Notes under the pieces: model-generated
What the model saw: only the letters and a program-made list of their open reading frames with translations
The model's database searches: none
What the model was told of the DNA's origin: nothing
IMG/VR virus record: IMGVR_UViG_3300017727_000115
Coordinates: 1 to 27,827 of that record
Source: a virus
Length of the DNA stretch: 27,827 nt
Strand: one strand, 5' to 3'
Shown here: positions 424 to 22,608 of the stretch, piece after piece
How positions within the stretch are numbered: the first letter of the stretch is position 1
Layout of the letters: each line of letters opens with the position of its first letter
Made by a program: the position numbers and the translations under genes

Positions 424-578
424 TATTTCTTTTTACCTCCAAAGTTACTAGGTCCACCAGCTTTAGTGCATCGCACGCCCCAACCCGAAGCATAAGCACT
501 AGGCCAAACCTTAAATTTTCTTTTTGCAGCAGCTTTACAAGCTGAACTTATTTTACCGTATAAAGGACTATTTGCCAT
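423..578 (-). CDS. 51-aa basic protein, DUF5872-like motif
   Basis: A complete 51-codon gene. Its ATG at 578 overlaps the last 11 bases of the giant virion gene, whose TAG is at 570-568. Its TAA at 425-423 overlaps the next ATG. The product is small and basic, beginning MANSPLYGK and ending with a Gly-Lys tail. It carries KFKVWPSAYASGWGVRC, close to the '(V/Y)xPSAYAxGxxVxxC' motif I associate with DUF5872-type proteins of phages and large viruses. The neighbouring 423-19 frame has the other motifs of that family, so the two genes may be split or duplicated parts of one small-protein family. Role unknown; placement after the virion genes suggests a late product. The overlap with both neighbours and the recognisable motif make it likely to be real. 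Confidence 0.75.
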   Translation of the reverse strand: MANSPLYGKISSACKAAAKRKFKVWPSAYASGWGVRCTKAGGPSNFGGKKK

Positions 579-3500
579 CTTTCTTTTTATTTTGTAGTTC
601 AATTATTTTTTTAACTCTAGCTTCTTCATAACGCAATGCTTTAATTTGTTTTTTATCAAGACCCAAATCTAATAGCATTTGTGTTTGCTCAGCTGTATTA
701 GTATCACGCTTCATTACATTGATCTCTTGTTGCTTAAGCTCTGCTTCTGTAGGTTCTTTTGGTTTATCCCAACCACCATAATATGGAAGACCAACATCAT
801 AAGAAGACCAACCAAGCGACATAGAAACTTTCTGCCATATCTGTGATTGCTCACTCATTATACCTCTAATATTGTTTATTTTTTTAATAACACGATCTAA
901 CGGTATATTTGTAAATGCAGTTACTATTTGTGCACCTGCTAAATAAGCTGGATTATCAAGACTAAAACCTTTTTCTTTTATTTCTTTTCTATTCCAACTA
1001 AAGCTTTTTAAACCACCTACTATTTTTCTATATTTAGAGCTAATAGCTGGTGAAAAACTTAATGCTTCTATTGCAGCTTTTTCAAACTCAGGTGTTTTCT
1101 TTTGAGACTCTTCATATATCTTCATTAGAGTGTTCTTAGCAGCAACCATAGCTGCGCCTGCAATACCTAAACCTTTTAATTGAGAGTCAACCATACCGTT
1201 TGCAACTCTAGCTATTTTTTTATCTTTAGCTTTCTTTTTCTTTTCATCTTCTTCGTCATCATCACCAAAGCCTATAGCAAATAATGCTTGTTGTAAAGCA
1301 TTAAATATTAAGTTTTGCATAACACCGTAATAAGCTATTCTAGATATATGTACTTTAGCGTCACCACGTCCTGCTGTTAAATCTTGTAAAGCACGCTTTT
1401 GTATTCTTACATACTGCATTGGGGTGTTAGCCCAGTTAAGTATAACACGACCAGCTGCTGATGCTTGTTGCATACTTATTTTATCAGGTGAACTAGACTG
1501 TTGGCTTTCTTCTGCAATTAATCTAAAGTCTTGAAAAGCTTTTTCTGTAGCCAACTCTTGACTCATGCCTTCTTTAATATATTTATTAAGTCTATTTCTA
1601 TAAAAAGTAGCACCACCTGAAGCAATTGCAAAACTATCTGCATATCTAGTGAGTACAAAACCTTTACTAAGTAAATATGCTATAGCGGATTTAGCTTTGT
1701 TTTTAGAATCTTTAACAGCATCCGCTATCTCAGATTCACTCACGTTTATCTTAAGACCATTACGACGCTCCGTTAAGTAATCAGAGTTCATAAGAGTCGT
1801 AAAATCTCCCCAGAATTGTTTTTGGTTTGCAAACGCTTTACCTGCAGCTATAATATTATTATCACCCCAATTTATAAAGTTTACAGCAGATATAGTTTGA
1901 AGTAGCGCAGATCTAGTATTTAAGAACATCACAGCGCCAACAGAGTTGTTAACCCAGTCAAGTACAGCGCTTGTTTGATCATTGTAACCAAGTCTGTTTG
2001 TACCAGCCTTCATTCTAGTTAATGTGTTTTCTAAAGCTTTACGCCAGCGCGTGCCATAAGCCGCTTCCATTTTGTTTAGATTTTCTGGTGAAAATATAAT
2101 ATCTACATTTTCTCTAAACTCTTGTTGATACTCTTTACGATTAACATCGTTTATACCACTAATAATATCTGTAGTTAAATTGCCACCTAACCAATCTTTG
2201 CCTGGCTTAGGATATGGTTTACCTTTTTGTATTGATATTAATTGATCTGCAAAAGCTTGAAGCTTAGCGTCATCAGTTATAAACTTATTAAGTTTTCTAA
2301 CATCTGCTTTTGAAAGCCCAGGTATCGACATGCCTTGTTTAGTCCACATGTAAGTACGAAGCGCGTGCTGATAATTAAATTTACCAACACCTGTTTCTGT
2401 CTCTAATGTTGTAGGTAGACCTGGAAACTGCTCTTTTAAAGCCATGAAGTCATTAGCTGCAGCTATTTTTGCTTGAGTTATAGAATCTTCAGCTTTATTA
2501 TATGTATCGATGAGATTTGTTTTTAAAAACTCATACTGAGATTCACCTTTTTTACCGTTACCTATCAAGTTATATAATAAACCCTTAAAATCTTCAGCTG
2601 ACGAAGCTAATGTTAACCAATCAAATCTTCCTTTATTTCTACCTAATGTTTTAGCTTTAGCGGCAGAGAACGTTTTGAATGACTCAATACCTGAAGAATC
2701 TTGAATCATTTGATTTACTATAGTATCAAATGTATTTGTTTTACTAAACTTAGCTTGTTGTACTCTTGATTTAACATCTATTTGATCTAATACTTCTTTA
2801 ACTGCTTTAACGTTTTTACTAGCATCATCTGCAAAATAAAAGTCATTATAACCTTCAGCTGCTTTACCAGCGATCCATCTACCTTTCGCAGCAGCGGTGC
2901 CATCGGCTAAGCCTGTTATATTTTTTAAAGGTATGTTAATACCTAAAGCTTTCATAAAAGCTTTTATAGGACCAGCTGCAGATTGTGGTCTAGCTGTTAA
3001 TATAAATAAATCTTCTGTACCACGAGTGTCTGCTATTTTTTTAGCAACATTAAATAATGGACCTTTTTTGCCATCAATAACTTGTTCAAATTCTGTAAAA
3101 TCAAATTCAGCACCTTCTGACTGTAATGTAGAAGCTTGTTCAGCAAATTGAGTAGCGTTTATTTTTTTAGTAGATCCATCAGGCATATTTACAATTACCT
3201 TACTTTTAGACCTAGCTAGTGTATCGTCAAAATCAAATACTCTTATTTTCTTAACAGGTTTATCTACTTTTCTACCTTCAGCTAAAGCTTTGTCAAGAGT
3301 GTTTAGCTCGTCAGTAACAAGCACGCTATTACCAGCGGCTTTGTCATTAAACTTGAGGCTGTTAGGTTGCATGTTGTTATTTGTAATACTAGGTTTTACT
3401 TTAGCATTACCAGAGCTGATCTGAGCATTAAGTCTTTTAACTGCTTCTGCTTGAGTTATTTCACCAGTCAAAACCTGATATGTAAGTTCGTTTTGAACAT

Positions 3501-6500
3501 ATATATTATTAGAGTTTTGATCTGATTTAGGTAATTGACGTGTGCGAGTTTCCGCCACGCTTTTACCCATTATGTAAAAGTTGTTAGAGTTTAAACCTTG
3601 TATGCCGTCTCCACTAGAATTTCTATTTACTTGAGGATTAAAATATCTAACTTCAGGAGTTGGTATTTCACTTACATCGCCAGTTTTAAAATACTCTTTT
3701 ATTTTATCATAAAAAAACTGTGTTTGAGTTTCTTTATAGTTATATGACTCACCATATTTGCCGTCTGTATCTATTAATTTGTTGTCTTGTGTTTCTGTTA
3801 TACCTAATTGAAAATAAACTTTTTCAACAACAGGCATTATATATTTTACGTCATCATACAGTTGAGCTGGGTACATTAACGAAGCCATGTCATTAGAAGG
3901 ATCAACATGCTCTTTTACAGTTTTACCACTTTTATCACGTTTAGCTTTTATATATTCTTCACTAACACCTTTATCTACAGCCATATTTCTTACTAAATGA
4001 GAAGTAGAAACAGATTGAGTTCCATAAATAGCTAGTAAAGGTAAATAATTAGCTGGGTCTGCTTTTACAGCATTTGCTCCGCCTTGTAATATAGCTTCAA
4101 CACCTTTATAATTATCATCTACTTTTTTCTGTGCAGATGGTTTAGAATATCTATTAGAAACAACAGAAGGGCTTTTAGCCGCTTTCGCCACGTTAACTTC
4201 TTTTACATTGTATGAAAGAGTGTTACCCTGATCTAACCAAGCTTTTCTATTTTTTTCAGCGTTTTTAAGTATATCATCAAATTGTTTAGTATCAAAAAAT
4301 ATAGCATTACCTTTAGAACTATAATCTACCATAGTTCCTTTAGTTAAAGATTCTAGTGGAATATATTTCCACATTTCATTTTCTATATTTCTTTTTAAAT
4401 ATTCTACAGCTTTAGGGTTTGTCGCTTTAAAGTTATTTACTGTTAATTCTTCACCTTCAAATTCAACTTTTATATTATTGTCTTTAGCAAACTTTTCAGC
4501 AGCTGTTCTCATTACTTTAACACCTTGCTCACCTAAAGTAGCTGTGTATACACCAGGTCTTTGTGCTTGCGTAATACTAAACTTAGCACCACCACGTAGT
4601 CGCTGAGGTGTTGTTGGTACTAAAGTTTCAAACATACGGTTTCTAATATGAGTATTTAATAAACCTCGTATTAGCTGAGCGTATTTACTATCTCTATATA
4701 ACTTACCTGTGGGTTTACTTCTAAGAAGATCCATATAATCTTTTAGTGTACCTGTAAGTTTGCCGTCAGTATATAAAGCATCTTTCATGTTTTTAGGTAT
4801 GAAAGTACCTCTACCGCGTGTAGTAGTCTCATCTTTAGTTTTAGGCAGTCTTGCATAATCACTAGCTGCATTAGCTAATAAAAATCTTTGAGCAGCATTT
4901 AAACCTGCTTCGTCATAATTTTGATACGTTCTAGTTTTATCAATAATAGTCTCTGGGTTTAAACCAAGCATGTCACCATATATTTTAGCCACAGCTGGTG
5001 GTACATCTTTTGTTTGACCAAACCTGTCTACATCTACATCTTTAAAACTCTCTGTAGTTGCTTCTGTTATTTTAGTTTCAAGCTCGCCTTTATTTTTAAC
5101 ACCTGCTTTTTCTATAATTGTATCAGAATACTTAACTGTTTCAGTTGGTGTTTTAGGCGTTCTAGAGCGTTTAGTTGTTGTTTGTTTTGTACTAGTATCT
5201 ACGACTTGCTTAGCTACCTCAGAATCAATGCTAGTGCCTTCTTGCAATGTTCCTCCTATTTGTTTAGCTCGTTCAAGTATTTCAGCTTGACGTTGTCTCA
5301 TTAAAGATCCTAAATAAGTATTAAGCTGAGCTGTGTCTGCGTTGAAATCAGCAAGCAATTGTTTGTTTCTACCTGGAAATATACCTTGCATTTGCTCGGT
5401 TATAGCTGTCTTAACGGCGTCCATTGGTATACTACCTGTTGGGTTGAACTTTAGTCCTTTGCTAATTACAGGCCAGTTAGTCTCAACAATAGCTTCTATA
5501 GCTGCAAACTTATCTGTTTGGTTGCTAGATTCAGAATTAATAGTATCAACTAGGTTTTCGTTTGTAATAGTTCCATCTCTTGAAAGATCTATAAACTCTT
5601 GACCTCTAGTAGTTATAGATGGCGATGTTCTATCACTAGTTGTTAAATCACCTTTTCTAATTAAAGCCTCTGCTCTTTCAGATACTTTACCTTCTTTTAT
5701 ACTTTTGTTATAATCTTTTATAAAATTATACGCGTCTCTACCACTTTGATATTCTAGATTCTTAAAACCAGCTGGTCCAAATACAGATTCTTTTAACTTC
5801 TTTACAAATCTAAGTAGATTTTCACCTAAGTTATCAGTAAAACCTATTTGATTTTTACCTACAAGATCAGAAAACACATTAAAATATTCTTCTGCATATG
5901 CAGCGGGTTCTTTTTCTATTTTATTACCTTGATCGTCTAACACAAAACCATCGTCATCGTTCATTTCATAACGGTAATTAGCATCAATTCTTTCTTGTAC
6001 TAATCTAAGCTCTTTATTGCTTAAAGTCTTTTTAAAATCTTCTACAAGTTCAACAGCTTTTTGAGGATTAGTATCAAATAAAGACTTTTGTATTTTATGT
6101 AGTAACTCGTGTTCAGCTGCTGTAACAGCTCCTACTGTAGCCGCCCACTCTTTGTTTATATATATTTGATTAGTTTTAGGATCTACGTAAGCATCTACAA
6201 ATTTAGGAATACCTTCTGGTAAGTTATTCATATCATCTATAACGTTTATATCTTCACCTAAAACTTTTTTAGTTACTGTTTCTACTTTTTCAATAGACTT
6301 TTTAAGTATAGCTTCGTTTTTAGCTTTATTTTCAGCTATTACATATGGAGCTATTATTTTAGCTCTTTGTTGCTCTAAATCTCTAAGCTCAACTTGTTTA
6401 GATTTAATTTGTATTTGCTTTGCTTCTTCTGAAATACTAGTATTATTATTAATACTTTCAATACTTCTAATTATATTATATTGATCAGCTTTATTTTTTA

Positions 6501-9429
6501 ATAAAAAGTTTTTCTCATCGCTAGTAAGCTGATCTATTCTATCTAAATCAACTTTTAAAGCTTTCATGCTTTTTTCTGTTAAACTATTTATTTCTGATTT
6601 TATAGAATTAAAAGCTTCAGTATCTATATTTGGAGAATTTTCAAGTTCGGCTTGTAGTTCTTTTATTCTATTAGCATTTTCACCTATTATTTGAACTGAT
6701 TGTCTGCTTCTAAAAGGAGCTATTATAGACTTACCTATTACAGGAGCTCTCATTACTAAACCCGAAGTCCAAGCTGTACTTATTGCAGTATCTTTAAATC
6801 CGTCAAATAAATTTACATCTTTTTTCTTAAGTATATATTTATCAGTTATATTACCTATCATTTGATCTAGAAGTTCACTAGAAACTTCTTCTGCTTGATC
6901 TATACCCCAATTTGATGCTCCAGTAATAAGGTTTTTAAGACCATCTTTAAAAGATGAGTTAAAAGCAGAATTAGCACTAAATGCCCCGCTAAGTCTTCCA
7001 AGCATACCTTGAGTTACGTATTCTGTTGCGACAGCAGATGTACCTGTTAAAGTTGCAGCTGTGTACATTTCAAATAAACTATAATTAGCACCATTAAGGT
7101 CTATTTCTTTTTGCATTTCTCTAAACTTACTTCCAGCTGTAGCTGCTCCTATTATAGGTAATCCAGCTCCACCAGATAGCAATAAAGTAGTCATTATAGG
7201 CACTTGGTTTCCTGTTGCTTCTGCAAAATAGGCTAATTTATCTTGCCATGTTTTTGTTTGATCCCAAGCTTGAGATTCAGCTAATTGACCTTCTATTGTG
7301 TCAGATAAGTAATCAACACTTGCTAACGCAGTGTCTGTAAGTTCTCTTCCAACTGATTTTCCGTCTTTTTTTAAAACAAACTTATCAAATAGATTTTTAC
7401 TTTGAAAAATTTTTCCAATAGGATTAACAGCAAGAGCGGTGTCTGTAATACCATATCTTTGACTAGATTCTAATACTCCAGCAGCTATGGTATTTAAAAA
7501 ACCTTGCGATGTTCTACCAAGCATTTTTGCTGCGATTCCGTAGTTTCTATTTAATACATCTGTAAATAAAGCTGCTTCTTCGTCTGTTTTTACTTTAGAA
7601 TCTAGCTCACTTATATTGTCTTGAATAATTTCTAAATTAGCTTTACTATTTATATTTAATTGTCTTAAATTATATTGAGCTTTGTCAACATCTTCTTGTG
7701 TTAAATACTGTTGATTAATTAAAATGGAAGACTGTAATTGATTATTATATATGTTTTGTTCAGCAATATTCATACTTACGTAAGTATTTGCTAAATCTAA
7801 TTCAGCTGCTGCAGATCCTAATTTACTAGCTATTTCTTCATCTGTTTCTCCAATAACATCTTTCCAACTTTTAGATCCACTAAACAATCCTAATAAAGCT
7901 CTACTAACAGCACCACCCTCAACTTTTACCTCATATTTAGCATATTCAGTATAAAGTCTTTTTAACTCATCTTTTTCAAGCTTTGTTTGATACATGTCAA
8001 TAACATCATCTCTCACCATTTCATTAGTGACATTAGCTACATTTACTTTATTTCTTTTAGCATAGTTAATCTTTGCTTGATTATAAAAATCTTGTTGCAA
8101 TAAAACATCTTCATCAACCCCTGGGTCTAAAACGTCTCCAGTAAGTGTTAAAAGACCTCTAGCTAAAGCACCTGTAGCAGTGTTAGGTTGAGTTTGTGCT
8201 TGAGTTTTAATAATTTTTCCAGCTATATTTAACATAGATGGCTCTTCGACAGGCTGTATTATAGAAAGCTGTCTAGCTTGTCTTTTTATATCTGGAAGTA
8301 TTTTTTTAAATTTATCATCAACCCATGCTTTTCCTGTAAGACTTAAATAAAGATTAACATCAGAATATTCTTTTTCTAATTGTTTTTTTTCTTCTTCTAA
8401 AGCAGCTATTTTACCAGTCTCGACTGGAGAAAGATTGTTTATTTTTTTATCTATTTCTGCCTTTTTAGTTACAAGTTCTTTTTTCTTTTCTTTAACTTTT
8501 TCTACTATATCTTCACCTCCATACTCTTCAAGTAAAGAATTAAACTCTCTTCTTTGAGCTTCCTGATTTATTTTTGATATATTAACACTTCTATCTACAG
8601 ATTCTAATTTACTAGAAATCTCATTTTGTTCCATATTACCAATTAGCATATCATCAAAAGACTGTGTGCCTTCTCTATTTGGATCAAAATCTTGTTGACT
8701 TGAAACTTGTAATTTCTGATTTGCCTGCTTTTTTACCTCAGATGGTAAAAAACCTAATTGAGACTGTATAGCTGCTTCTTGGTTTTGTAAAGCTATATTT
8801 TTAGGATTGCTTTTAGCACGTTCTGAAGCATTAACAAACTCTTCGTCATCTTTACTTTTGTAAAAAACTTGTAAATCTAAATTACCATCTTCATCTACTT
8901 CTGATTGATATTTATATGTAAAATCACCATCTACAACTTCTTCACCTGAGTTTACTATTTCAACGTCAGAGTTTACATCTTTATAAGCATTTTTTACAGC
9001 ATCATCTATAGCTTTTCTTCTACCAGTTTCATTTTTTTGTTTTTGAACTGTATCAAAAAATCTTTTACGAATTACTTGGTAACTTTCTTCTTCAGGTTCT
9101 TGTGATTCCGATGAACCATCTTCCGACGGAGATTCCGTATCTTCTTCCTCGGATGCATTTTCCGGTGTAGTTGTTACAGTCGCATCCTGTTCCTCCGCAA
9201 CAACTTCTTGATTTCCCTCTTCTTCAATTACCTCTTCTTTTTCAACACCTTCTTCTTCAACCGGTTTTTGATTTTCAACAACTTCAGGTGTTTCTTTTGT
9301 AGTTAAAACACCTTCAGTTTCTTGCATTGATTGATCTGCTTGCCATTTTCCAAGTTCAGCAATTATCTGATTTCTAGTCAGCGGTGGACTAACAGACTGA
9401 AGTTCTATAGTTTTTTGTTCTAATGTCAT
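568..9429 (-). CDS. Giant 2953-aa internal virion/ejection protein with zinc-peptidase-like and HAD-like motifs
   Basis: By size, position after the tail and gp14-like genes, and build, this is probably an internal protein ejected with the DNA, analogous to T7 gp15/gp16 or N4 giant virion proteins. Residues about 45-118 are strongly acidic and low-complexity, followed by long helical, coiled-coil-like stretches. A Gly/Ala/Leu-rich hydrophobic segment lies near 740-765 and others near 2500 and 2690-2720, which could interact with membrane. A zincin-like HELLH motif sits at H1107-H1111, with candidate third ligands E1180/E1181 in the following helix. Residues about 2060-2230 hold all HAD phosphatase motifs: DFDDT (D2066, D2068, T2070), LTARP (T2145), downstream lysines, and FADD (D2201, D2202). 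I saw no lysozyme or transglycosylase motif. The start at 9429 lies 5 bases past the upstream stop; the gene ends in TAG. The virion role is inference; the motifs are directly visible. Confidence 0.85.
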   Translation of the reverse strand: MTLEQKTIELQSVSPPLTRNQIIAELGKWQADQSMQETEGVLTTKETPEVVENQKPVEEEGVEKEEVIEEEGNQEVVAEEQDATVTTTPENASEEEDTESPSEDGSSESQEPEEESYQVIRKRFFDTVQKQKNETGRRKAIDDAVKNAYKDVNSDVEIVNSGEEVVDGDFTYKYQSEVDEDGNLDLQVFYKSKDDEEFVNASERAKSNPKNIALQNQEAAIQSQLGFLPSEVKKQANQKLQVSSQQDFDPNREGTQSFDDMLIGNMEQNEISSKLESVDRSVNISKINQEAQRREFNSLLEEYGGEDIVEKVKEKKKELVTKKAEIDKKINNLSPVETGKIAALEEEKKQLEKEYSDVNLYLSLTGKAWVDDKFKKILPDIKRQARQLSIIQPVEEPSMLNIAGKIIKTQAQTQPNTATGALARGLLTLTGDVLDPGVDEDVLLQQDFYNQAKINYAKRNKVNVANVTNEMVRDDVIDMYQTKLEKDELKRLYTEYAKYEVKVEGGAVSRALLGLFSGSKSWKDVIGETDEEIASKLGSAAAELDLANTYVSMNIAEQNIYNNQLQSSILINQQYLTQEDVDKAQYNLRQLNINSKANLEIIQDNISELDSKVKTDEEAALFTDVLNRNYGIAAKMLGRTSQGFLNTIAAGVLESSQRYGITDTALAVNPIGKIFQSKNLFDKFVLKKDGKSVGRELTDTALASVDYLSDTIEGQLAESQAWDQTKTWQDKLAYFAEATGNQVPIMTTLLLSGGAGLPIIGAATAGSKFREMQKEIDLNGANYSLFEMYTAATLTGTSAVATEYVTQGMLGRLSGAFSANSAFNSSFKDGLKNLITGASNWGIDQAEEVSSELLDQMIGNITDKYILKKKDVNLFDGFKDTAISTAWTSGLVMRAPVIGKSIIAPFRSRQSVQIIGENANRIKELQAELENSPNIDTEAFNSIKSEINSLTEKSMKALKVDLDRIDQLTSDEKNFLLKNKADQYNIIRSIESINNNTSISEEAKQIQIKSKQVELRDLEQQRAKIIAPYVIAENKAKNEAILKKSIEKVETVTKKVLGEDINVIDDMNNLPEGIPKFVDAYVDPKTNQIYINKEWAATVGAVTAAEHELLHKIQKSLFDTNPQKAVELVEDFKKTLSNKELRLVQERIDANYRYEMNDDDGFVLDDQGNKIEKEPAAYAEEYFNVFSDLVGKNQIGFTDNLGENLLRFVKKLKESVFGPAGFKNLEYQSGRDAYNFIKDYNKSIKEGKVSERAEALIRKGDLTTSDRTSPSITTRGQEFIDLSRDGTITNENLVDTINSESSNQTDKFAAIEAIVETNWPVISKGLKFNPTGSIPMDAVKTAITEQMQGIFPGRNKQLLADFNADTAQLNTYLGSLMRQRQAEILERAKQIGGTLQEGTSIDSEVAKQVVDTSTKQTTTKRSRTPKTPTETVKYSDTIIEKAGVKNKGELETKITEATTESFKDVDVDRFGQTKDVPPAVAKIYGDMLGLNPETIIDKTRTYQNYDEAGLNAAQRFLLANAASDYARLPKTKDETTTRGRGTFIPKNMKDALYTDGKLTGTLKDYMDLLRSKPTGKLYRDSKYAQLIRGLLNTHIRNRMFETLVPTTPQRLRGGAKFSITQAQRPGVYTATLGEQGVKVMRTAAEKFAKDNNIKVEFEGEELTVNNFKATNPKAVEYLKRNIENEMWKYIPLESLTKGTMVDYSSKGNAIFFDTKQFDDILKNAEKNRKAWLDQGNTLSYNVKEVNVAKAAKSPSVVSNRYSKPSAQKKVDDNYKGVEAILQGGANAVKADPANYLPLLAIYGTQSVSTSHLVRNMAVDKGVSEEYIKAKRDKSGKTVKEHVDPSNDMASLMYPAQLYDDVKYIMPVVEKVYFQLGITETQDNKLIDTDGKYGESYNYKETQTQFFYDKIKEYFKTGDVSEIPTPEVRYFNPQVNRNSSGDGIQGLNSNNFYIMGKSVAETRTRQLPKSDQNSNNIYVQNELTYQVLTGEITQAEAVKRLNAQISSGNAKVKPSITNNNMQPNSLKFNDKAAGNSVLVTDELNTLDKALAEGRKVDKPVKKIRVFDFDDTLARSKSKVIVNMPDGSTKKINATQFAEQASTLQSEGAEFDFTEFEQVIDGKKGPLFNVAKKIADTRGTEDLFILTARPQSAAGPIKAFMKALGINIPLKNITGLADGTAAAKGRWIAGKAAEGYNDFYFADDASKNVKAVKEVLDQIDVKSRVQQAKFSKTNTFDTIVNQMIQDSSGIESFKTFSAAKAKTLGRNKGRFDWLTLASSAEDFKGLLYNLIGNGKKGESQYEFLKTNLIDTYNKAEDSITQAKIAAANDFMALKEQFPGLPTTLETETGVGKFNYQHALRTYMWTKQGMSIPGLSKADVRKLNKFITDDAKLQAFADQLISIQKGKPYPKPGKDWLGGNLTTDIISGINDVNRKEYQQEFRENVDIIFSPENLNKMEAAYGTRWRKALENTLTRMKAGTNRLGYNDQTSAVLDWVNNSVGAVMFLNTRSALLQTISAVNFINWGDNNIIAAGKAFANQKQFWGDFTTLMNSDYLTERRNGLKINVSESEIADAVKDSKNKAKSAIAYLLSKGFVLTRYADSFAIASGGATFYRNRLNKYIKEGMSQELATEKAFQDFRLIAEESQQSSSPDKISMQQASAAGRVILNWANTPMQYVRIQKRALQDLTAGRGDAKVHISRIAYYGVMQNLIFNALQQALFAIGFGDDDEEDEKKKKAKDKKIARVANGMVDSQLKGLGIAGAAMVAAKNTLMKIYEESQKKTPEFEKAAIEALSFSPAISSKYRKIVGGLKSFSWNRKEIKEKGFSLDNPAYLAGAQIVTAFTNIPLDRVIKKINNIRGIMSEQSQIWQKVSMSLGWSSYDVGLPYYGGWDKPKEPTEAELKQQEINVMKRDTNTAEQTQMLLDLGLDKKQIKALRYEEARVKKIIELQNKKKDGK

Positions 9430-9434
9430 TTAAT

Positions 9435-10535
9435 TTAACTTAATTTATTATCTTGTAAAAATTTTTGAGCCTTAGCAGTTCTGCCTTCTGATAAATCAAA
9501 CACAGCTGCGTCTTCTTGAACAGTAGGTAATCTATCTGTAATGAATTGTTTTAAATAGTTATTCATAAAATATTCTACAAATTTATTTTCAAATAAAACT
9601 TTTTTATCTTGAGAAAGAGGTAAATCTTCTTCATAACTCCAGCTTTTGCTAGCTGCATTTGCGTTTTGTACCATTTGGTCGTCTTCTTCAACGCTAGTTT
9701 GCATTGCTAAATAAACATTCCAAAGTGCAATTGCTTCTTGTTCTTGAGATAAAATACCAGCAATTTCAGCATTAATAAAAGGCATTGATTTTCTAGTTAT
9801 TTTATCTATATCAAACTTAAGTATGTTTCTACCTTTACCACCACCTATTTCTATTATTTCATAATCAAAAGAACCATCTGGATTTTTCATTACAAACTCG
9901 TCAGTTATTCTAGCAACAGGAGATAATTCACCATTTTCTTGTATAGAATTATCTTCAAATAAACCTGTTTGAGGAAGTATAGCCATCATTAGTTTATTTA
10001 TATCTGGAGTTTCTGTGACTATACTAGTACCAGCTTCTGACAAAGTATTAAGAGCAACGCTATTTATAACTAAAGGTTCTTCAAACATAGGTCCAATAAA
10101 TACTAACTCTAAAGATCCAGTTTCAAGTATATTCATAAATACATTATAGCCTTGTGATTTAGAAAATCCTGGTTTTTCAGTTATTACAGAATTAGCTACT
10201 GTATATTTGTAGTTGTTATTAGGATCAAAATTAGAATCTTCTGTTGTTTCTAATTGAGATATAACTTCAGTTAAAAACTCAATTGCATTTTGTGGAGCAT
10301 TTTTTAAAAACTCTAGCTGCTTATATTCATATTCACAATTTGGAGAACTACATTTATTGTTTTCAATATTAGACATTAATTTAGCGTATATTTTACCCGT
10401 AGGTCTAAAAGCCTTACCTAATATATCAAAATCTAAATCAAAATTAGATGCTATAAATCTTTTATCAAAACCTAAAGCATTGCTTTCATTAAGCTGTTTT
10501 AGATATAAATTCGTTTGTATATTTTTATTTTCCAT
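9435..10535 (-). CDS. 366-aa unrecognised virion-associated protein
   Basis: I do not recognise this family. The product is acidic, predicted mostly helical, with no signal peptide or membrane segment. It has two close cysteines in NKCSSPNCEYEY near residue 64, not enough to claim a zinc site. A Gly-rich stretch, IGGGKGRN, lies near residue 230 in a mixed alpha/beta context. It sits between the gp14-like gene (10 bases upstream) and the giant ejection protein (5 bases downstream). In podoviruses that slot usually encodes internal or ejected virion proteins, so a virion or assembly role is likely by position only. The AGGAGG 14 bases before the start belongs to the Gly-Gly codons ending the upstream gene and is too distant to be a convincing ribosome site. 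Confidence 0.7.
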   Translation of the reverse strand: MENKNIQTNLYLKQLNESNALGFDKRFIASNFDLDFDILGKAFRPTGKIYAKLMSNIENNKCSSPNCEYEYKQLEFLKNAPQNAIEFLTEVISQLETTEDSNFDPNNNYKYTVANSVITEKPGFSKSQGYNVFMNILETGSLELVFIGPMFEEPLVINSVALNTLSEAGTSIVTETPDINKLMMAILPQTGLFEDNSIQENGELSPVARITDEFVMKNPDGSFDYEIIEIGGGKGRNILKFDIDKITRKSMPFINAEIAGILSQEQEAIALWNVYLAMQTSVEEDDQMVQNANAASKSWSYEEDLPLSQDKKVLFENKFVEYFMNNYLKQFITDRLPTVQEDAAVFDLSEGRTAKAQKFLQDNKLS

Positions 10536-10545
10536 ATGTTATATC

Positions 10546-11268
10546 TTATCCTCCTAGTGCTCCTGCAGCAAAAGACATCACTGAATCCCCAAGACCACCA
10601 ACAGCTCCTGTAAGAGCATTAGAAGCAGCGGCTTGAGCTGATTGTTTCGCGCCTGTTAAAGCAGCTATTTTATTTCTTTGATAATTTATGTTGTCTTGCT
10701 CTCTATTTTCTTGAGCTTGCATACGTATGTTTTCACCCATACCTATAAGCTGTTGAGTTCTACCAGCTTCAGAAACTTGAATTGATTGTATTCTTTGTGC
10801 GTCAGCTAGTTGCTGTTGCTCCATCATTTGTTGGCCTTGAGCTCTTAGTTTCTCATTAGCAGCTTCTTGGCTTTCAATACTAGCAGCAACATTTTGTTTA
10901 CTTTGTAAAGCAGCTTGAGCTAAAGCAGTAGCGCCACCTGCTCCCGCACCTGTAGCTCTTAACGTATCTAAAGTATTAGCTAGTGCAATATCAGATTGTT
11001 CCATTTGTATTTCAGCTGCTTTTGTAGCCACGCCTAGATTAGCAAAAGGATTAGTAACTTTACTAGAAAGATCCGTAGCTAGCGCTGACACATCTGTAAC
11101 ACCGCTATAAGGATTTGTTATTTGCTGTCTACTAGCTTCTAAACTATTAAGCTTAGCTGTTTCTTTTTTTAAGGCTCTGCGCAAAGCTCTTGCTCTTTTT
11201 TTAGCAGCGCTTGACGCGAATATTCCAGATGCTACTTTTAAACCTGCACCTAATGCAAATAGTCCCAT
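10546..11268 (-). CDS. gp14-like internal virion/ejection protein
   Basis: A 240-aa Ala-, Gln- and Ser-rich helical protein. It begins with a short Gly/Ala-rich amphipathic stretch (MGLFALGAGLKVASGIFASS), followed by a basic segment (KKRARALRRALKK). The middle has long Gln/Glu/Ala heptad-like helices with QQMMEQQQLADAQR, and the tail is Gly/Ala-rich. This build is typical of podoviral internal virion proteins of the T7 gp14 type, which are ejected first and form a pore in the outer membrane. The order hub, gp14-like, unknown, giant protein is similar to T7 gp11-gp12-gp13-gp14-gp15-gp16. The assignment rests on composition, size and position, not on a conserved catalytic motif. The leader (AAAAATTAAAAATATG) has no Shine-Dalgarno. 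Confidence 0.65.
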   Translation of the reverse strand: MGLFALGAGLKVASGIFASSAAKKRARALRRALKKETAKLNSLEASRQQITNPYSGVTDVSALATDLSSKVTNPFANLGVATKAAEIQMEQSDIALANTLDTLRATGAGAGGATALAQAALQSKQNVAASIESQEAANEKLRAQGQQMMEQQQLADAQRIQSIQVSEAGRTQQLIGMGENIRMQAQENREQDNINYQRNKIAALTGAKQSAQAAASNALTGAVGGLGDSVMSFAAGALGG

Positions 11269-11282
11269 ATTTTTAATTTTTA

Positions 11283-12755
11283 TTAATAACCACTTGAAAA
11301 AGTGTAGTTAGATGACACTGCAAATAATTCTTTAAAACCTCCAATATCTGTCACGCTATCAGTCTGCATTGTAACAACTCCAAAAAATCCTTTTATTCCA
11401 GATATTTGATTTCCAAATACAACTTCACCTTGTATTGTACCTTGTGCAGCAAAGTTCGCTTGAGTATTGTTAATTATATTTGCACAATATTTGTTTTCTT
11501 TTCTATCAAACCCAGCTCTAAATATAGGTTGAACTGTAGCTGATATTCCCGTGTTTGGTGGATTTGCAGAATCATATGCTCCTTGTACAAAACTTAAAAC
11601 TGAATTAGCTTGATCAAAAGCAAATGAAGAACTATTAAGCGATGTTCCTGCTCCAGTTCTATCAGATTCAAGTTGTGTAACCTCCCAACCATTAGATCCT
11701 TCGTAATTAATTGTGTTAAACACTTTTTCGTTACTTGGATTAGGGTTAAATATAAATTTAACTGATGATGGATAATCTACTCCGTAAAAAGATCCATAAT
11801 TAACAGTAGCAGAATCATGTATATATAAACTACTACCAGTAGTTGTGTAATGTCTATTTTTTACACTAAAAGATTGACTTGGTTTAAAATTATAAAAACT
11901 AATCCAACCTTGTGCTCTTTCGTCATATGAAAGAGTTTTAAATTCTGTATTATCACTAGAAGGTTGTATAGATAAATTATATTCTTTATTATACATATCC
12001 CAACTACCTATGAGTTTACCTTTACCAAACGAAGGTGAATCTACTCTTACTATTTGTCTTCTAAAAAATGAAGTCATACCAGTAGATGATATTTCCTCTA
12101 TACCATTACCGCTTAATCTTAGTACAACAGACTGATTTGGATCTACAAAATATTTGTTATATCCATAAACTGCAAAACTCTCTGGATGTGTTCCTATGCC
12201 GTAATTGCCCGCAAAAGGAACTGTTTGGCCTATAACAACTTTTAATGAGCTAACAGGTAATCCACCACCTTCAGCACTATATATAGCATCTTTGTCTATT
12301 AAAGCTTTACTTACTTTTATTTCTTGGAATATAATTAAATTAGTGTCTTCAGCGTATAGCTTTTGTATAGAACCGTTTGCAGGTTCTAAACTTTTAGTTA
12401 TTTCTTCAGCAACACTAAATACGTTAGTTTGGTTTATATTGGTTCTAGAATTATATATACCAGAGTATATCATAGAATTAAATCTTATACTAGCGTTTGG
12501 TTCTTCTTCAACTAAATAAGCTCTAACTCCGTAATCAGTAGATGTATTGTTATATCCGCCTCTTATTCTAGCTTCTTCTATAATCCAAGCTTTATCTTCG
12601 TTTATATTACTGTTTCTTCTAAAACCAGGACCATATACACCTAAATCACCGGGTATACCTAATGATCCGTTCCAAATTAAATCATTTGTTCCGTTTTCTG
12701 GCTGTTTTTTTAAAACAAAGCTGTTAAAATATTTAACTTCTACTATGGCTGCCAT
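11283..12755 (-). CDS. C-terminal part of the tail hub / gp12-like nozzle protein, encoded separately
   Basis: A 490-aa beta-rich structural protein. Motifs I associate with the C-terminal half of the tail-hub ('phage stabilisation', T7 gp12-like) protein of crAss-like and related podoviruses appear in order: EEARIRGGYNN (about 60-70), LYAEDTNLIIFQE and KALIDKDAIYSAEGG (about 135-170), ESFAVYGY and VLRLSGNGIEEIS (about 190-220), GWISFYNFKPSQSFSVKN (about 285-305), and FIFNPNPSNEKVFNTINYEG (about 335-355). In the relatives I recall, these follow the N-terminal region in one polypeptide. Here that region is in the upstream gene, 31 bases away and in a different frame. It probably forms part of the tail barrel through which DNA exits. 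The start is the ATG at 12755, with an AT-rich leader and no Shine-Dalgarno. Confidence 0.7.
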   Translation of the reverse strand: MAAIVEVKYFNSFVLKKQPENGTNDLIWNGSLGIPGDLGVYGPGFRRNSNINEDKAWIIEEARIRGGYNNTSTDYGVRAYLVEEEPNASIRFNSMIYSGIYNSRTNINQTNVFSVAEEITKSLEPANGSIQKLYAEDTNLIIFQEIKVSKALIDKDAIYSAEGGGLPVSSLKVVIGQTVPFAGNYGIGTHPESFAVYGYNKYFVDPNQSVVLRLSGNGIEEISSTGMTSFFRRQIVRVDSPSFGKGKLIGSWDMYNKEYNLSIQPSSDNTEFKTLSYDERAQGWISFYNFKPSQSFSVKNRHYTTTGSSLYIHDSATVNYGSFYGVDYPSSVKFIFNPNPSNEKVFNTINYEGSNGWEVTQLESDRTGAGTSLNSSSFAFDQANSVLSFVQGAYDSANPPNTGISATVQPIFRAGFDRKENKYCANIINNTQANFAAQGTIQGEVVFGNQISGIKGFFGVVTMQTDSVTDIGGFKELFAVSSNYTFSSGY

Positions 12756-16959: not shown

Positions 16960-18177
16960 TTAGTGTTTTATCCATTTAGATTTACCTCTCATAACTTGAG
17001 CTATTTCATCAAGTTTTATGTTAGATAATCTTATTTTGGCATTTCTTAATTTAGCGCTTCTATCTCTTTTAAGTCTTATTATATTATTAGGATCTTGATT
17101 TGCTCTAACAGAAACTATATTGTAAAGTATAGAAGCATATAAAGCATCTTCTGCAAGTTTGGGAACCTTTGTATCTAAGTCAGTGCCTAACCCATCAGAT
17201 ATGTACTCTAATACAATTAATTCGTTTACTAGTTCGTTTGAAAAAGATATTTTACCCTCTCTATAGTTCATGCTAAACCAGCCGTTTATTTGAGAAGTTT
17301 GAGGATCTAAGCCATATAATCTTCCTGTATTAAAATTACCATCAAAACCATACAAGTTCCACCAATAAGCAAAATCATTAAAATTGTCTAACAGATTGAA
17401 ATTAAGTAAATCTAAATTTGCTTTAGCCCATCTTTCTTCCGTAATAGATGTGCCTTCAATGTTGTTGCCAAAATTATCTTGAGTAGGAACTCCAGTTGTA
17501 TCTTGAACAGGGTTGTTATATGGGTTTATTGTTAAATTATTTACAGGGTATATTATTCTTTTAATTCCTAACTCATCAATTCTAGAAACTCTTACATAGT
17601 TTACGTAGTCTTGAGGTAGTGGTAAGCTTAAAGATGGAGGTACCGTTAGTTCTTGAGAGTGTATGCTCTTTAAAGTATCATAACTAAATTCTTGCAATGA
17701 TCTTTTAGCAAAAAATAAAACATCAGATTTTTTTGCTTGTTGTAGTATTTTACCATCTCCAACGTAACCAACCATGAAGTTATCTATAGCATCATTTAAA
17801 CTTATGTATTCATAACCTCCGTAATTTTCTTCTACAGTTTGGCCAAAAGCATCTTGATTGCCATAATTACCGCCACTTAACGATTTTAACTGAACAACTA
17901 AATAATGATTTATAGTTAAAGAATTAGCTACTTTTATAGTGTTATTTGTTACCGTATAAGTATTAGTATATTCTGTAAAACTACCTGGCAAACCTGTAGC
18001 GCTTGTATATAATTTAAAATTATTTAAAGCATAATCTACGTTTGTAGGATCAAATGAACCAAAAACTAAATCTGTATTAAAAGTGGTTGTAAACTCTTGG
18101 TTAGTTCCAGTTGCAGGTATTAAAAAAGGTTGAGCTCCTTGATAATATTGTTGATTAGTTTCTGTTGTCAATGCCAT
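16960..18177 (-). CDS. Head-tail connector / ring protein (T7 gp11-like family)
   Basis: A 405-aa structural protein carrying a segment very typical of the neck/ring proteins of crAss-like and marine podoviruses: VGYVGDGKILQQAKKSDVLF, then AKRSLQEFSYDTLKSIHSQE and LPLPQDYVNYVRVSRIDELG (residues about 130-205). The central helical domain matches the gp11/adaptor role of bridging portal and tail hub. The N-terminal about 110 residues are beta-rich, and the C-terminus is strongly basic (IRLKRDRSAKLRNAKIRLSN to the end). It sits between another connector gene and the tail hub, 6 bases from each neighbour, so all are probably made from one mRNA in proportionate amounts. The role is by family resemblance; the exact ring position cannot be told from sequence. 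Confidence 0.72.
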   Translation of the reverse strand: MALTTETNQQYYQGAQPFLIPATGTNQEFTTTFNTDLVFGSFDPTNVDYALNNFKLYTSATGLPGSFTEYTNTYTVTNNTIKVANSLTINHYLVVQLKSLSGGNYGNQDAFGQTVEENYGGYEYISLNDAIDNFMVGYVGDGKILQQAKKSDVLFFAKRSLQEFSYDTLKSIHSQELTVPPSLSLPLPQDYVNYVRVSRIDELGIKRIIYPVNNLTINPYNNPVQDTTGVPTQDNFGNNIEGTSITEERWAKANLDLLNFNLLDNFNDFAYWWNLYGFDGNFNTGRLYGLDPQTSQINGWFSMNYREGKISFSNELVNELIVLEYISDGLGTDLDTKVPKLAEDALYASILYNIVSVRANQDPNNIIRLKRDRSAKLRNAKIRLSNIKLDEIAQVMRGKSKWIKH

Positions 18178-18183
18178 AATTTA

Positions 18184-18948
18184 CTAAGATTTTTGATTTA
18201 TTTCAACAGCTTGAGCTTCTTGAGCAGCAACTTCTATTATTGTAGGATCATTAATTACAACACCAAAATACTTTAATGTATTTATAATTAAGTTTGTTTG
18301 CTCTGAAATATCTAACTGAAAATTTATTGAAGTCACGGGATTATAAACATATTGACCCAAACTTCCAACAGCATAATTCCATTGTGGCGATATTGGGTTT
18401 AATAAGCAATTAACTTTAACATTTCCATTTGTAGTAGGTGATGGAGTTACTTTTAAAACAAGTTCTGAATCTGTAAGTCCTGTAGGTACAGCATTTGTTG
18501 TTATAAATAAAGGATATTGTTTAGTAGGAGTTGTTAGCTTAGATCTTATAATTTTATCAAAATCTTTTTTACTAGCCAACTGTGTAATTGAAGAATATTG
18601 AGGCTGGCCGTCGTATGTAGTTATGACTTCACCTATTTTATATATTTCAGAAGATGTGGCATTGTAAAAAACATCATTATTGCTATCGTAAGAAAATATT
18701 ATTTCTTCTTCAAAAGGATATAACTTATATGCTATATCTTTATACATATTAAAAAACTCAGTATCGTTTTGTGTATTATTTTGGTTTTGTCTATTAACTT
18801 GATTTCCGTCAGGAAAATAAGAATTAAATATTTCTTTTTGTACAAGATCGGCAATACTATTAAACTCAGAAGGTGTTACATAACCTCTTTGTTCTTTGTT
18901 TAATATGTACAAGACTGTTGTATATACTTTGTTTACGTTTACTGCCAT
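18184..18948 (-). CDS. Neck / connector structural protein
   Basis: A 254-aa protein whose N-terminus, VNVNKVYTTVLYILNKEQRG followed by YVTPSEFNSIADLVQKEIF (residues about 3-42), matches a motif I recall from structural proteins just before the gp11-like ring gene in crAss-like and marine podoviruses. The middle and C-terminal parts are beta-rich with a Pro/Asn-rich section (ISPQWNYAVGSLGQYVYNP), then a helical tail. It is the first gene after the terminator at 18963-19001 and lies 6 bases before the ring-protein gene, suggesting the neck genes form their own transcription segment. The stop is TAG. A head-completion or ring role is inferred from motif and position. Confidence 0.65.
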   Translation of the reverse strand: MAVNVNKVYTTVLYILNKEQRGYVTPSEFNSIADLVQKEIFNSYFPDGNQVNRQNQNNTQNDTEFFNMYKDIAYKLYPFEEEIIFSYDSNNDVFYNATSSEIYKIGEVITTYDGQPQYSSITQLASKKDFDKIIRSKLTTPTKQYPLFITTNAVPTGLTDSELVLKVTPSPTTNGNVKVNCLLNPISPQWNYAVGSLGQYVYNPVTSINFQLDISEQTNLIINTLKYFGVVINDPTIIEVAAQEAQAVEINQKS

Positions 18949-18962
18949 TTTATATTTTTTAT

Positions 18963-19001
18963 ATACTAAAAAGGCGGCCGAAACCGCCTATATATTAGTA
19001 T
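18963..19001 (-). terminator. Rho-independent terminator after the 275-aa gene
   Basis: On the minus strand, a 6-bp G+C stem AGGCGG/CCGCCT (+ strand 18972-18977 with 18984-18989) with loop TTTCGG is followed by five T residues. An outer 7-bp stem, ATACTAA/TTAGTAT (18995-19001 with 18963-18969), encloses it, separated by a small internal loop. The stem is strikingly GC-rich in an otherwise very AT-rich spacer. It lies between the stop at 19011 and the next start at 18948. Because the following gene must still be expressed, it may be a partial terminator or sit upstream of another promoter. Confidence 0.8.
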
Positions 19002-19010
19002 CACTTGTTT

Positions 19011-19838
19011 TTATAGTTTTTTATCTATAGATTTATAGATTTCAACACCTTCATCTGTTTTTAAGAAAGCAGCGAAAGCTGAGTATGGGTTTTCGTCAAA
19101 AGGTACATTCATTAATTTTCTACCAGTTGATCCCCATGTAAATGTTCTTTGGTCTTGCGATAAATTAATTATACCAGCTTCTGTTGCTCTAATAGCTATA
19201 TTTCTTAATTGAACATTATCATCATTTGCTAAATTAATAAATAATTGTGGATTATTTCTAGCAAATAAAAGTAAATCTCTTTTTAACTCTTTAGAGCTCA
19301 TGTTATTTACTTTTGATCCTAGCTCTACTCTTAATATAGCTTCTGCTTGATCTATATCTATATTTCTAGCTGCGTTTAAAGCATCTATTTGAAGATCTAA
19401 AATATCTAAATCGTCTGCAGCTACTTTAACAGCGTTAAATTCTTCATACATTTTACCTTTTAATGGGTGATATAAAGAAAGTAGTTTTTGCAAGTTTTGT
19501 TTTTCTTTTGGTACTTTTAAATCACCATCTCTAAATATAATGTGACCTAAAGTTGCTTCACCTTTTTGTTCATCTACAAATGGTGAATCTTGATTAGTAG
19601 CATATCTTATTTCTTTCTGTTTACCAGTTTCTGAATCAAAATAAAGCAATGAGTGCTTTGACGTATGTCTACTAGGTATTGTTAAAGTAAGTGGTGACTT
19701 ATTATGTTTTAAATAATAAATTCTATCTTTAATTTCCCACTCTGGTTTAATTGGTTTTACTTCTTTTTTTAGTGCAGCTTTTACTGCTACTTCTTGAGGT
19801 GCAACCTCAACAGTTTCTGCTTTAGCTTTTTTAGCCAT
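19011..19838 (-). CDS. 275-aa unrecognised virion-associated protein next to the capsid gene
   Basis: I do not recognise a named family. Residues 1-32 are Lys/Ala/Val-rich and probably disordered (MAKKAKAETVEVAPQEVAVK). A compact domain follows (about 33-125) with IYYLKHNKSPLTLTIPSRH, then HIIFRDGDLKVPKEKQNLQK and LLSLYHPLKG, a pattern seen in several small phage head proteins. The rest is helical, ending in PYSAFAAFLKTDEGVEIYKS. The gene stands alone between two intrinsic terminators, directly after the major capsid gene, so its expression level is probably set separately from both neighbours. A head-decoration, head-completion or DNA-associated internal protein would fit the position, but nothing in the sequence decides between them. 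The leader is AT-rich with no Shine-Dalgarno. Confidence 0.7.
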   Translation of the reverse strand: MAKKAKAETVEVAPQEVAVKAALKKEVKPIKPEWEIKDRIYYLKHNKSPLTLTIPSRHTSKHSLLYFDSETGKQKEIRYATNQDSPFVDEQKGEATLGHIIFRDGDLKVPKEKQNLQKLLSLYHPLKGKMYEEFNAVKVAADDLDILDLQIDALNAARNIDIDQAEAILRVELGSKVNNMSSKELKRDLLLFARNNPQLFINLANDDNVQLRNIAIRATEAGIINLSQDQRTFTWGSTGRKLMNVPFDENPYSAFAAFLKTDEGVEIYKSIDKKL

Positions 19839-19868
19839 GATATAATAAAATTAAATAGTTAATAATAA

Positions 19869-19907
19869 AAACCTTAGGACTACGCTCACTATGCAGTCCT
19901 AAGGTTT
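19869..19907 (-). terminator. Strong intrinsic terminator downstream of the major capsid gene
   Basis: A perfect 13-bp inverted repeat, AAACCTTAGGACT (19869-19881) with AGTCCTAAGGTTT (19895-19907), and a 13-base loop whose ends can pair further (GC/GC). Read on the minus strand, the stem is followed by TTTTTATTATT. On the plus strand it is followed by AATTT only, so it acts mainly for minus-strand transcripts. It starts 13 bases after the MCP stop, the usual place for limiting readthrough from the most abundant late transcript. Confidence 0.88.
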
Positions 19908-19919
19908 AATTTAAGGTAA

Positions 19920-21353
19920 TTAGATACCTTTGAATAGTACAAAGTTGTTAGCAGCTTGTGTTACTAAACATCTTTCAGATAGGAAGTTTACTTCCATAGC
20001 ATCTAGATCAGATGTAAATGCACCACCAGCAGAACCAGTCAACCAAGACTTCATTCTTCTGTCGTCAGCCTGTGAAGCTCTATAACGTACATGTAAGAAA
20101 GGTCTACGAATATTAGTTCCTAAAATTTGATCGTAAACAGTTGAAGTTCCAGCAGGTACTAAAACACCTTCAATAGAACTTACTCCAGTTATTGCTCCAC
20201 GAGTTGAAGCATCATTTAAGTATTTCCAATCTGTTTTATAGAAATCATAAGAACCTCTTCTGAAACCGCTAAAACCTAAGTTTAATGCCATTTCTTCAGA
20301 GTTTTCAAATAATCCGTAAGCAGTACCACCAGCAGTACCACCAGAAATTGAAGCTAGCATGTCATCAAAATCCAAAGCAGTTTGTCTTTGTAAGAATAAC
20401 ATGTTTTCTTCAATAGCTCCTTGAGTATCTAAGTTTTTTAAGATATCATCAAAAGCTGTTAATCCAGCAGCAGCAGTAAATCCAACGTTTACATTACCAC
20501 GATCTTCGATAGCAGCAAATAAACCTTGAGTACCTTTAGCATTAGTGATACCAGAACCACCACCTACTTCTTCACCTTCAACCATAGACATTTCTAAGTA
20601 ATCTTCAAAACGTAAACGAGTTTCAGATTCAGCTTTTAAATACCATAAATATCCAGAAGCACCATCTTCAGTTGCAACTTCAACCCAACCGATTTGTGCC
20701 ATATCAGAACCATTTACAACATATTTGTTTCTAATAATTATTGGAGAGTTTGCATATTGAGTAAAAGAAGGATCTACACTAATGTATCCATTAACAGGAC
20801 CAGCAGCTGCAGTATTGTTAGGTGTTAATGAACCTTTTTCATATTCAGAACCATAAACAAATACTTTAACATTTCCAGTAATACCAGCTGTAGCAAGTGT
20901 AGCAGAAGTGTATGGTAAAACGTCAATAACAAAAGTAGTAGTATTAGAAGCTGTTACTAAACATTTTACTTCATTTCCATTGTTATCTAAAACAACAACA
21001 GTTGCTCTAGGAGAAATAACATTTTGAATTTGAGCAGAAGCAGTAGGATTAATATTAATAGTGTTACCAGCTCCAGTTTGAGTACAATCATCATAAGCGA
21101 TATGTAATCTATTTTGCTCAGACCAAATAACTTGATCAGATGTCATTGGCATTTCAGCGCCAACCATTCTTAAAAATCCAGAAAGTGTACGATTTCCGTA
21201 GCGCTCTACTTCTTGTTCGTAAACTTCAGGTAAATATTGCTGTGCAAAAGTATCAGTTCCTGCAGCAGCGTCATTAAATACTAAATAATTAGTACCTAAT
21301 AATTCTTGTTTTTGACTTGGTATAATACTACCAAATTGAGGAGTCAAAGCCAT
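19920..21353 (-). CDS. Major capsid protein
   Basis: A 477-aa protein, probably with the HK97 fold, forming the icosahedral shell. Residues about 36-84 contain YLPEVYEQEVERYGNRTLSG, then FLRMVGAEMPMTSDQVIWSE and QNRLH, a block I associate with the major capsid proteins of crAss-like and related uncultured podoviruses. Residues about 85-175 are a beta-rich, Thr/Val-rich section that could be an inserted domain. A long helical section follows (SETRLRFEDYLEMSMVEGEE near 245-265, then LDTQGAIEENMLFLQRQTAL near 300-325), as expected of a spine helix. The C-terminus is beta-rich and ends NNFVLFKGI. The gene follows a scaffold-like gene and is followed by the strongest terminator in the window, as is usual for capsid genes. 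The start at 21353 has the leader TAAAAATTAATTATTATG. Confidence 0.88.
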   Translation of the reverse strand: MALTPQFGSIIPSQKQELLGTNYLVFNDAAAGTDTFAQQYLPEVYEQEVERYGNRTLSGFLRMVGAEMPMTSDQVIWSEQNRLHIAYDDCTQTGAGNTININPTASAQIQNVISPRATVVVLDNNGNEVKCLVTASNTTTFVIDVLPYTSATLATAGITGNVKVFVYGSEYEKGSLTPNNTAAAGPVNGYISVDPSFTQYANSPIIIRNKYVVNGSDMAQIGWVEVATEDGASGYLWYLKAESETRLRFEDYLEMSMVEGEEVGGGSGITNAKGTQGLFAAIEDRGNVNVGFTAAAGLTAFDDILKNLDTQGAIEENMLFLQRQTALDFDDMLASISGGTAGGTAYGLFENSEEMALNLGFSGFRRGSYDFYKTDWKYLNDASTRGAITGVSSIEGVLVPAGTSTVYDQILGTNIRRPFLHVRYRASQADDRRMKSWLTGSAGGAFTSDLDAMEVNFLSERCLVTQAANNFVLFKGI

Positions 21354-21368
21354 AATAATTAATTTTTA

Positions 21369-22577: not shown

Positions 22578-22608
22578 AATATAATATAATTAAATAATTA
22601 AATAAAAA

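Follow-up and report, generated by a model that had tools for sequence, protein, structure and literature searches.

Proteins that phages eject into their hosts act before phage gene expression, and most giant proteins of this kind have no known activity beyond the RNA polymerase of phage N4. The N4 virion RNA polymerase (vRNAP, gp50; Schitoviridae) is the product of the last gene of the head block and carries a HExxH domain (HELVH at 2228) ahead of a large, helical C-terminal part. N4-like vRNAPs are devoid of cysteine, which has been explained by their passage through the tail and the periplasm (PMC3715699, PMC3915230). A second group of comparable proteins are the phage polyvalent proteins, giant and multidomain, encoded beside virion genes and in part equipped with a zincin-like metallopeptidase (MPTase) that has HExxH plus E or, in a variant form, HEXXXH. 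The presence of zincins in giant ejected and polyvalent proteins is thus known (Iyer et al. 2017, PMC5512222). In that survey, self-processing is put first among the functions of such zincins, and N4 vRNAP is described as packaged uncut.

The window analysed here is the whole 27,827-nt stretch of the IMG/VR record IMGVR_UViG_3300017727_000115, a 27.8-kb virus record that is probably a fragment. Its minus strand holds a reading frame that is open from 9429 to 568 over 2953 aa, referred to below as the giant. A preliminary description of the DNA had given the positions of this frame and of its HELLH, DFDDT, LTARP and FADD motifs exactly. The features are as follows (residues are those of the giant).

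568..9429, minus strand: giant virion-type ORF of 2953 aa, without cysteine, closing the head-gene block
775..2694, minus strand: residues 2246-2885, the constant C-terminal core, helical and with structural resemblance to large polyvalent phage proteins
2689..3264, minus strand: HAD-type phosphatase domain, residues 2056-2247 (motifs, model, profiles)
2824..2835, minus strand: HAD motif IV, FADD 2199-2202, with the putative Mg-binding residues D2201 and D2202 (77-row alignment)
2884..2886, minus strand: candidate for HAD motif III, K2182, identical in all rows
2986..3000, minus strand: HAD motif II, LTARP 2144-2148, with T2145 (77-row alignment)
3220..3234, minus strand: HAD motif I, DFDDT 2066-2070, with the putative nucleophile D2066 and acid/base D2068, invariant
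5644..6327, minus strand: zincin-type domain, residues 1035-1262 (conservation, model, profiles)
5887..5889, minus strand: E1181, likely third Zn ligand, kept in 73/77 relatives and helical in the model
6097..6111, minus strand: HELLH, residues 1107-1111, two putative Zn ligands and general base, kept in 75-76/77 relatives
6415..7284, minus strand: hydrophobic module, residues 716-1005 (peak 745-763), common to the giants of phi18:3, phi40:1 and elemo, and to that of Gundel_1 over 719-837
9435..12755, minus strand: three genes (366, 240 and 490 aa) immediately before the giant, in the place of N4 gp51/gp52 by positional analogy only
16960..27206, minus strand: genes for the terminase (736 aa), the portal (795 aa), a capsid candidate (477 aa) and further virion proteins, as context

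Like N4 gp50, the giant is the last gene of its head block, and like the polyvalent proteins it is encoded beside virion genes: upstream of it lie a GroES-like protein, the terminase, the portal, the capsid candidate and further virion proteins. The same gene order with a terminal giant gene is found in elemo, Calle_1, phi40:1 and MW202828, and a looser version of it in phi18:3 and Gundel_1. Cultured relatives have Flavobacterium, Cellulophaga, Tenacibaculum and Maribacter as hosts, so that a host among the Bacteroidota, of the marine flavobacterial type, is likely. The whole giant had no match in Pfam, PHROGs or PADLOC, none of the named polyvalent Pfam domains was significant in it, and sequence-profile searches against the PDB gave no significant match. 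IMG/VR contains many relatives, and the lineage has at least several hundred metavirome matches. One relative, L004, has its giant in two frames, with the break near residue 2282 of the window giant; either a sequencing error or a true frameshift would account for it. Seven giant-bearing contigs (L083-L087, L089 and L091) are binned in Aliivibrio, Woesearchaeota, Ilumatobacteraceae and Maricaulis MAGs and are probably misbinned phage.

Conservation was assessed mainly in an alignment of 77 full-length relatives that were not selected for motifs. A further alignment, A1, omitted six rows (L032, L036, L050, L053, L064 and L072), and its invariance was therefore not used as evidence. Over the first 2050 residues the identity of the 77 relatives to the window giant is only ~6-30% per 50 residues, and the only columns that are at least 90% identical within the first 2065 residues are H1107, E1108, H1111 and E1181. 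Judged by sequence pattern, these are exactly the predicted Zn ligands and base of a gluzincin. Among the 77 relatives, 75 have H1107, 76 have E1108, 75 have H1111 and 73 have E1181, where the local background identity is about 10-30%; since E1180 is kept in only 42, E1181 is the likely third ligand of the pair 1180/1181 that had been proposed before. A second set, gathered by the HAD block without reference to the zincin, comprised 91 ORFs, 82 of them extending far enough upstream. HExx(x)H lies 700-1400 residues ahead of the HAD domain in 77 of these 82; the set shares some contigs with the 77-row alignment and is not fully independent of it. The five motif-free ORFs are L106 (on the contig of L036), L124, L125, L132 and L172. 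In L036 itself EEIFH replaces HExxH and L041 has neither, so that the lineage does not strictly depend on HExxH. L028 carries HEKAGH, the HEXXXH form known from polyvalent-protein peptidases (Iyer et al. 2017, PMC5512222). In shuffled versions of the giant, HExxH arose in 1/2000 and FxFDxDxT in 5/2000 cases.

The AlphaFold2 model of residues 1035-1262, built from 45 sequences, reached a pLDDT of 84 and a pTM of 0.82. In the predicted order, a helix and strands precede the HExxH helix, and E1181 sits in a helix further on, which fits the zincin topology. A Foldseek search with this model against the PDB gave no significant match, the best zincin being found at a probability of 0.41. For comparison with N4, a profile was made from the HExxH domain of the vRNAPs of nine schitoviruses, in which H, E, H and a later E are invariant. 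Profile-profile alignment of the zincin with this domain gave a probability of 72 (P 3.5e-5) and a score of 42.7, against 11.9 for the reversed profile and 16.0 for the best of 60 shuffles. In hhalign, the zincin was matched by the elemo giant with a probability of 97, by one of two sites in a Manatee Spring phage giant with 86 and by the Gundel_1 giant with 52; a zincin is thus also present in the elemo giant and probably in that of Gundel_1. Together, sequence and model argue for a zincin-type metallopeptidase domain that would be catalytically active. The zincin also joins N4 vRNAP and the giants of flavobacterial phages into one architectural class. The Manatee Spring phage giant (L094 741-12320, minus strand; 3859 aa) has two HEFGH motifs, at 1615 and 2500, and possibly two zincins; its label 'reticulocyte binding/rhoptry protein' looks wrong.

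The HAD-type domain is still more strongly conserved. D2066, D2068, T2070, LTAR with T2145, K2182, D2201 and D2202 are present in 77/77 relatives, and motifs I-IV are also invariant in a separate 20-row alignment. The AlphaFold2 model of residues 2035-2885 (pLDDT 77) places DFDDT, LTAR and FADD at strand ends, with the strand order of a Rossmannoid HAD fold; the two models hence put the motifs into predicted zincin-type and HAD-type folds and not into coiled coils or loops. Foldseek with the HAD/C-terminal model found nothing significant in the PDB (best HAD at a probability of 0.87, E 0.38), and the HAD block alone found no relative among cultured phage records. At the profile level, phrog_415 'polynucleotide kinase' was matched by 22/39 members (best 6e-6), with weak matches to TIGR01664 (DNA 3'-phosphatase), HAD-IA/IIIC models and PF12710. 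Alignment by hhalign with T4-type 3'-phosphatases (the PseT/Pnk domain of the HAD superfamily) extended over 125 columns, brought the catalytic motifs into register and gave a probability of 95, P 3.8e-8 and a score of 53.6, the shuffle maximum being 21.6. With single sequences, phage 3'-phosphatases gave 1.5-81% and four E. coli HADs 0.3-16%; because of these ranges, placement in the polynucleotide 3'-phosphatase subfamily is suggestive only. In contrast to T4-type PseT/Pnk, the domain has its motifs I and II farther apart, is embedded in a virion-type giant, and no kinase partner was found. Polynucleotide 3'-phosphatases being its closest relatives among those tested, nucleotides or phosphorylated ends are a reasonable prediction for the substrate, with 3'-phosphate ends as the simplest guess. 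We also considered DFDDT as the DxDGD motif of a two-barrel RNA polymerase and rejected this, as there is no DxDGD and the full HAD set is invariant.

The two sets of residues, together with the models and profile matches, bear out the proposal of two enzyme-type domains with complete catalytic sets, and the comparison of homologues that had been suggested as a check came out in its favor. Two disparate catalytic-type domains, zincin and HAD, accordingly share one chain, as in polyvalent proteins. Zincins in such proteins being known, the invariant HAD domain in a constant core appears to be new, as the main text of the polyvalent-protein survey does not mention a HAD phosphatase (PMC5512222). 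With two catalytic centers and the exact residues to mutate, fixed across the lineage, the question of the role of these giants can be reduced to a few assays.

Around these two centers the giant is a mosaic. In L005, L007 and L034, identity to the window giant is 89-90% over the C-terminal core and 77-84% over the HAD domain, yet no more than 16-27% over the N-terminal and middle regions (53% for the zincin of L007); the drop falls within ~40 residues, 2040-2060, and the three genes just upstream are 46-59% identical. Because the identities switch so sharply, we read the HAD domain and the C-terminus as the constant part and the remainder as exchanged or very fast-evolving, with the zincin center as a fixed point. 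Foldseek against viral models showed that the C-terminal block resembles many giant phage proteins, several of which are named large polyvalent protein, and the Gundel_1 giant also matches residues 2546-2722. With the C2 part of N4 the helical C-terminus has no sequence match, and the C-terminal parts are not alignable by sequence.

The module at 716-1005 is homologous to gp123 and gp101 of the Cellulophaga phages phi18:3 and phi40:1, respectively, both annotated from virion MS/MS. The homologies to the cultured giants emerged by hhalign, BLASTP and unfiltered hmmsearch, while simple column profiles and default filters gave none. Of three hydrophobic segments proposed earlier, the one near 750 is clear (745-763, mean Kyte-Doolittle 1.61), whereas those near 2500 and 2700 (1.03 at 2498 and 1.18 at 2703) are weakly hydrophobic and questionable as transmembrane segments. 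HAD motifs are absent from the giants of elemo, Gundel_1, phi18:3 and phi40:1, and the latter two also lack HExxH.

The absence of cysteine is separate, indirect evidence for ejection of the giant. Given the cysteine frequency in the remaining genes of the window, the giant would be expected to contain 13 but has none, and 64/77 relatives (L002-L080) are likewise cysteine-free. The same holds for N4 vRNAP (3500 aa) and the giants of elemo (3694 aa), Gundel_1, phi18:3 and phi40:1. The ejected proteins gp51 and gp52 of N4 and gp15 and gp16 of T7 have no cysteine, and a single one occurs in the likewise ejected T7 gp14. Cysteine is present in most of the other virion proteins that we checked, the N4 major coat protein being free of it. 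The lack of cysteine thus marks giant ejected proteins across unrelated phages and might offer an inexpensive way to screen metaviromes for ejected proteins. Together with the gene position shared with N4 vRNAP and the partial homology to MS/MS-verified virion proteins, it agrees with the initial view of a giant virion-type protein.

We consider it likely, with a probability of roughly 70%, that the giant is an internal protein of a podovirus particle and resembles the ejected N4 vRNAP and the phage polyvalent proteins in construction and use; for the window giant itself we infer packaging, ejection, catalysis, the cleavage target and the HAD substrate. The giant would be packaged together with the genome and, upon infection, pass through tail and periplasm in an at least partly unfolded state, the module at 716-1005 aiding at the membrane; such a passage would account for its lack of cysteine. 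After refolding inside the host cell, the zincin would cut the giant, in cis or between copies, and thereby free or activate the N-terminal parts. The HAD domain in the constant C-terminal core would take phosphate off a nucleic-acid end or a nucleotide, the simplest targets being 3'-phosphates on the entering phage DNA or on damaged RNA. Because N4 vRNAP is packaged uncut, self-cleavage of the giant is not a given. Against the interpretation as an ejected internal protein, neither model has a significant PDB match, a few relatives are without HExxH, the MS/MS-verified giants of phi18:3 and phi40:1 have neither enzyme motif, and we found no virion proteomics of any HAD-bearing member. More tentatively, and against the odds, we speculate that a widespread lineage delivers a fixed 3'-phosphate repair HAD in every infection while the self-processing zincin frees an N-terminal cargo that is swapped wholesale. 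If true, the giant would be a constant launcher with an exchangeable payload, the boundary lying just before the HAD domain.

The evidence for delivery would be identical if the zincin were an effector that cleaves host proteins of defence, transcription or the envelope, with the HAD domain dephosphorylating host nucleotides or signals. Some such peptidases may target host proteins according to Iyer et al. 2017 (PMC5512222), and the highly variable sequence around a center that is kept resembles an arms race. However, an enzyme that stays the same while the N-terminal parts next to it differ completely suits common self-processing at least equally well, and neither Pfam, PADLOC nor the other searches run indicated a host target. 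We therefore regard the effector as possible but doubtful; action on host envelope proteins in particular, as first suggested, is unsupported, self-processing being placed first in the survey. It is unlikely that the zincin is a head-maturation protease that cuts the giant or head proteins during assembly, the HAD domain acting in the virion or being passive. P1 DdrB is processed before packaging with a zincin as the proposed agent (PMC5512222), and some members weakly match the phage families 'minor head protein' and 'metallo-protease', but the uncut packaging of N4 vRNAP, with its related domain, and the lack of any sign of a partner substrate in the first-tested members of the upstream gene set speak against it.

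That both domains are non-catalytic relics whose folds persist for the sake of packaging or structure appears improbable. The zincin-holding region of N4 is needed for encapsidation (PMC5512222), and L036 retains a related helix with EEIFH in the place of HExxH. Yet where almost all else changes, the residues that persist are precisely those of ligand, base and nucleophile, and a structural role does not predict conservation of catalytic residues. A diverged virion RNA polymerase, with the polymerase in the variable N-terminal or middle region, is a very improbable identity for the giant, even if it shares with N4 gp50 the gene position, a zincin ahead of a helical C-terminal part and the lack of cysteine. 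Unlike gp50, the giant has a HAD domain, and no RNA polymerase domain was found in it: neither the giant nor the N-terminal parts of 23 relatives match an RNA polymerase family, the DxDGD motif is absent, and no region of the giant other than the zincin and HAD domains keeps an invariant catalytic set in the alignment of relatives.

Two minor observations concern the variable regions. In the middle part, an EH..P motif lies at residues 1840-1844 (3898-3912, minus strand), E1840 and H1841 being present in ~82% of the relatives, and may represent a third active site. Glyco_hydro_108 was matched in 2/23 of the relatives' N-terminal parts (alignment A4; best E 2e-4), some of which may carry a cell-wall enzyme.
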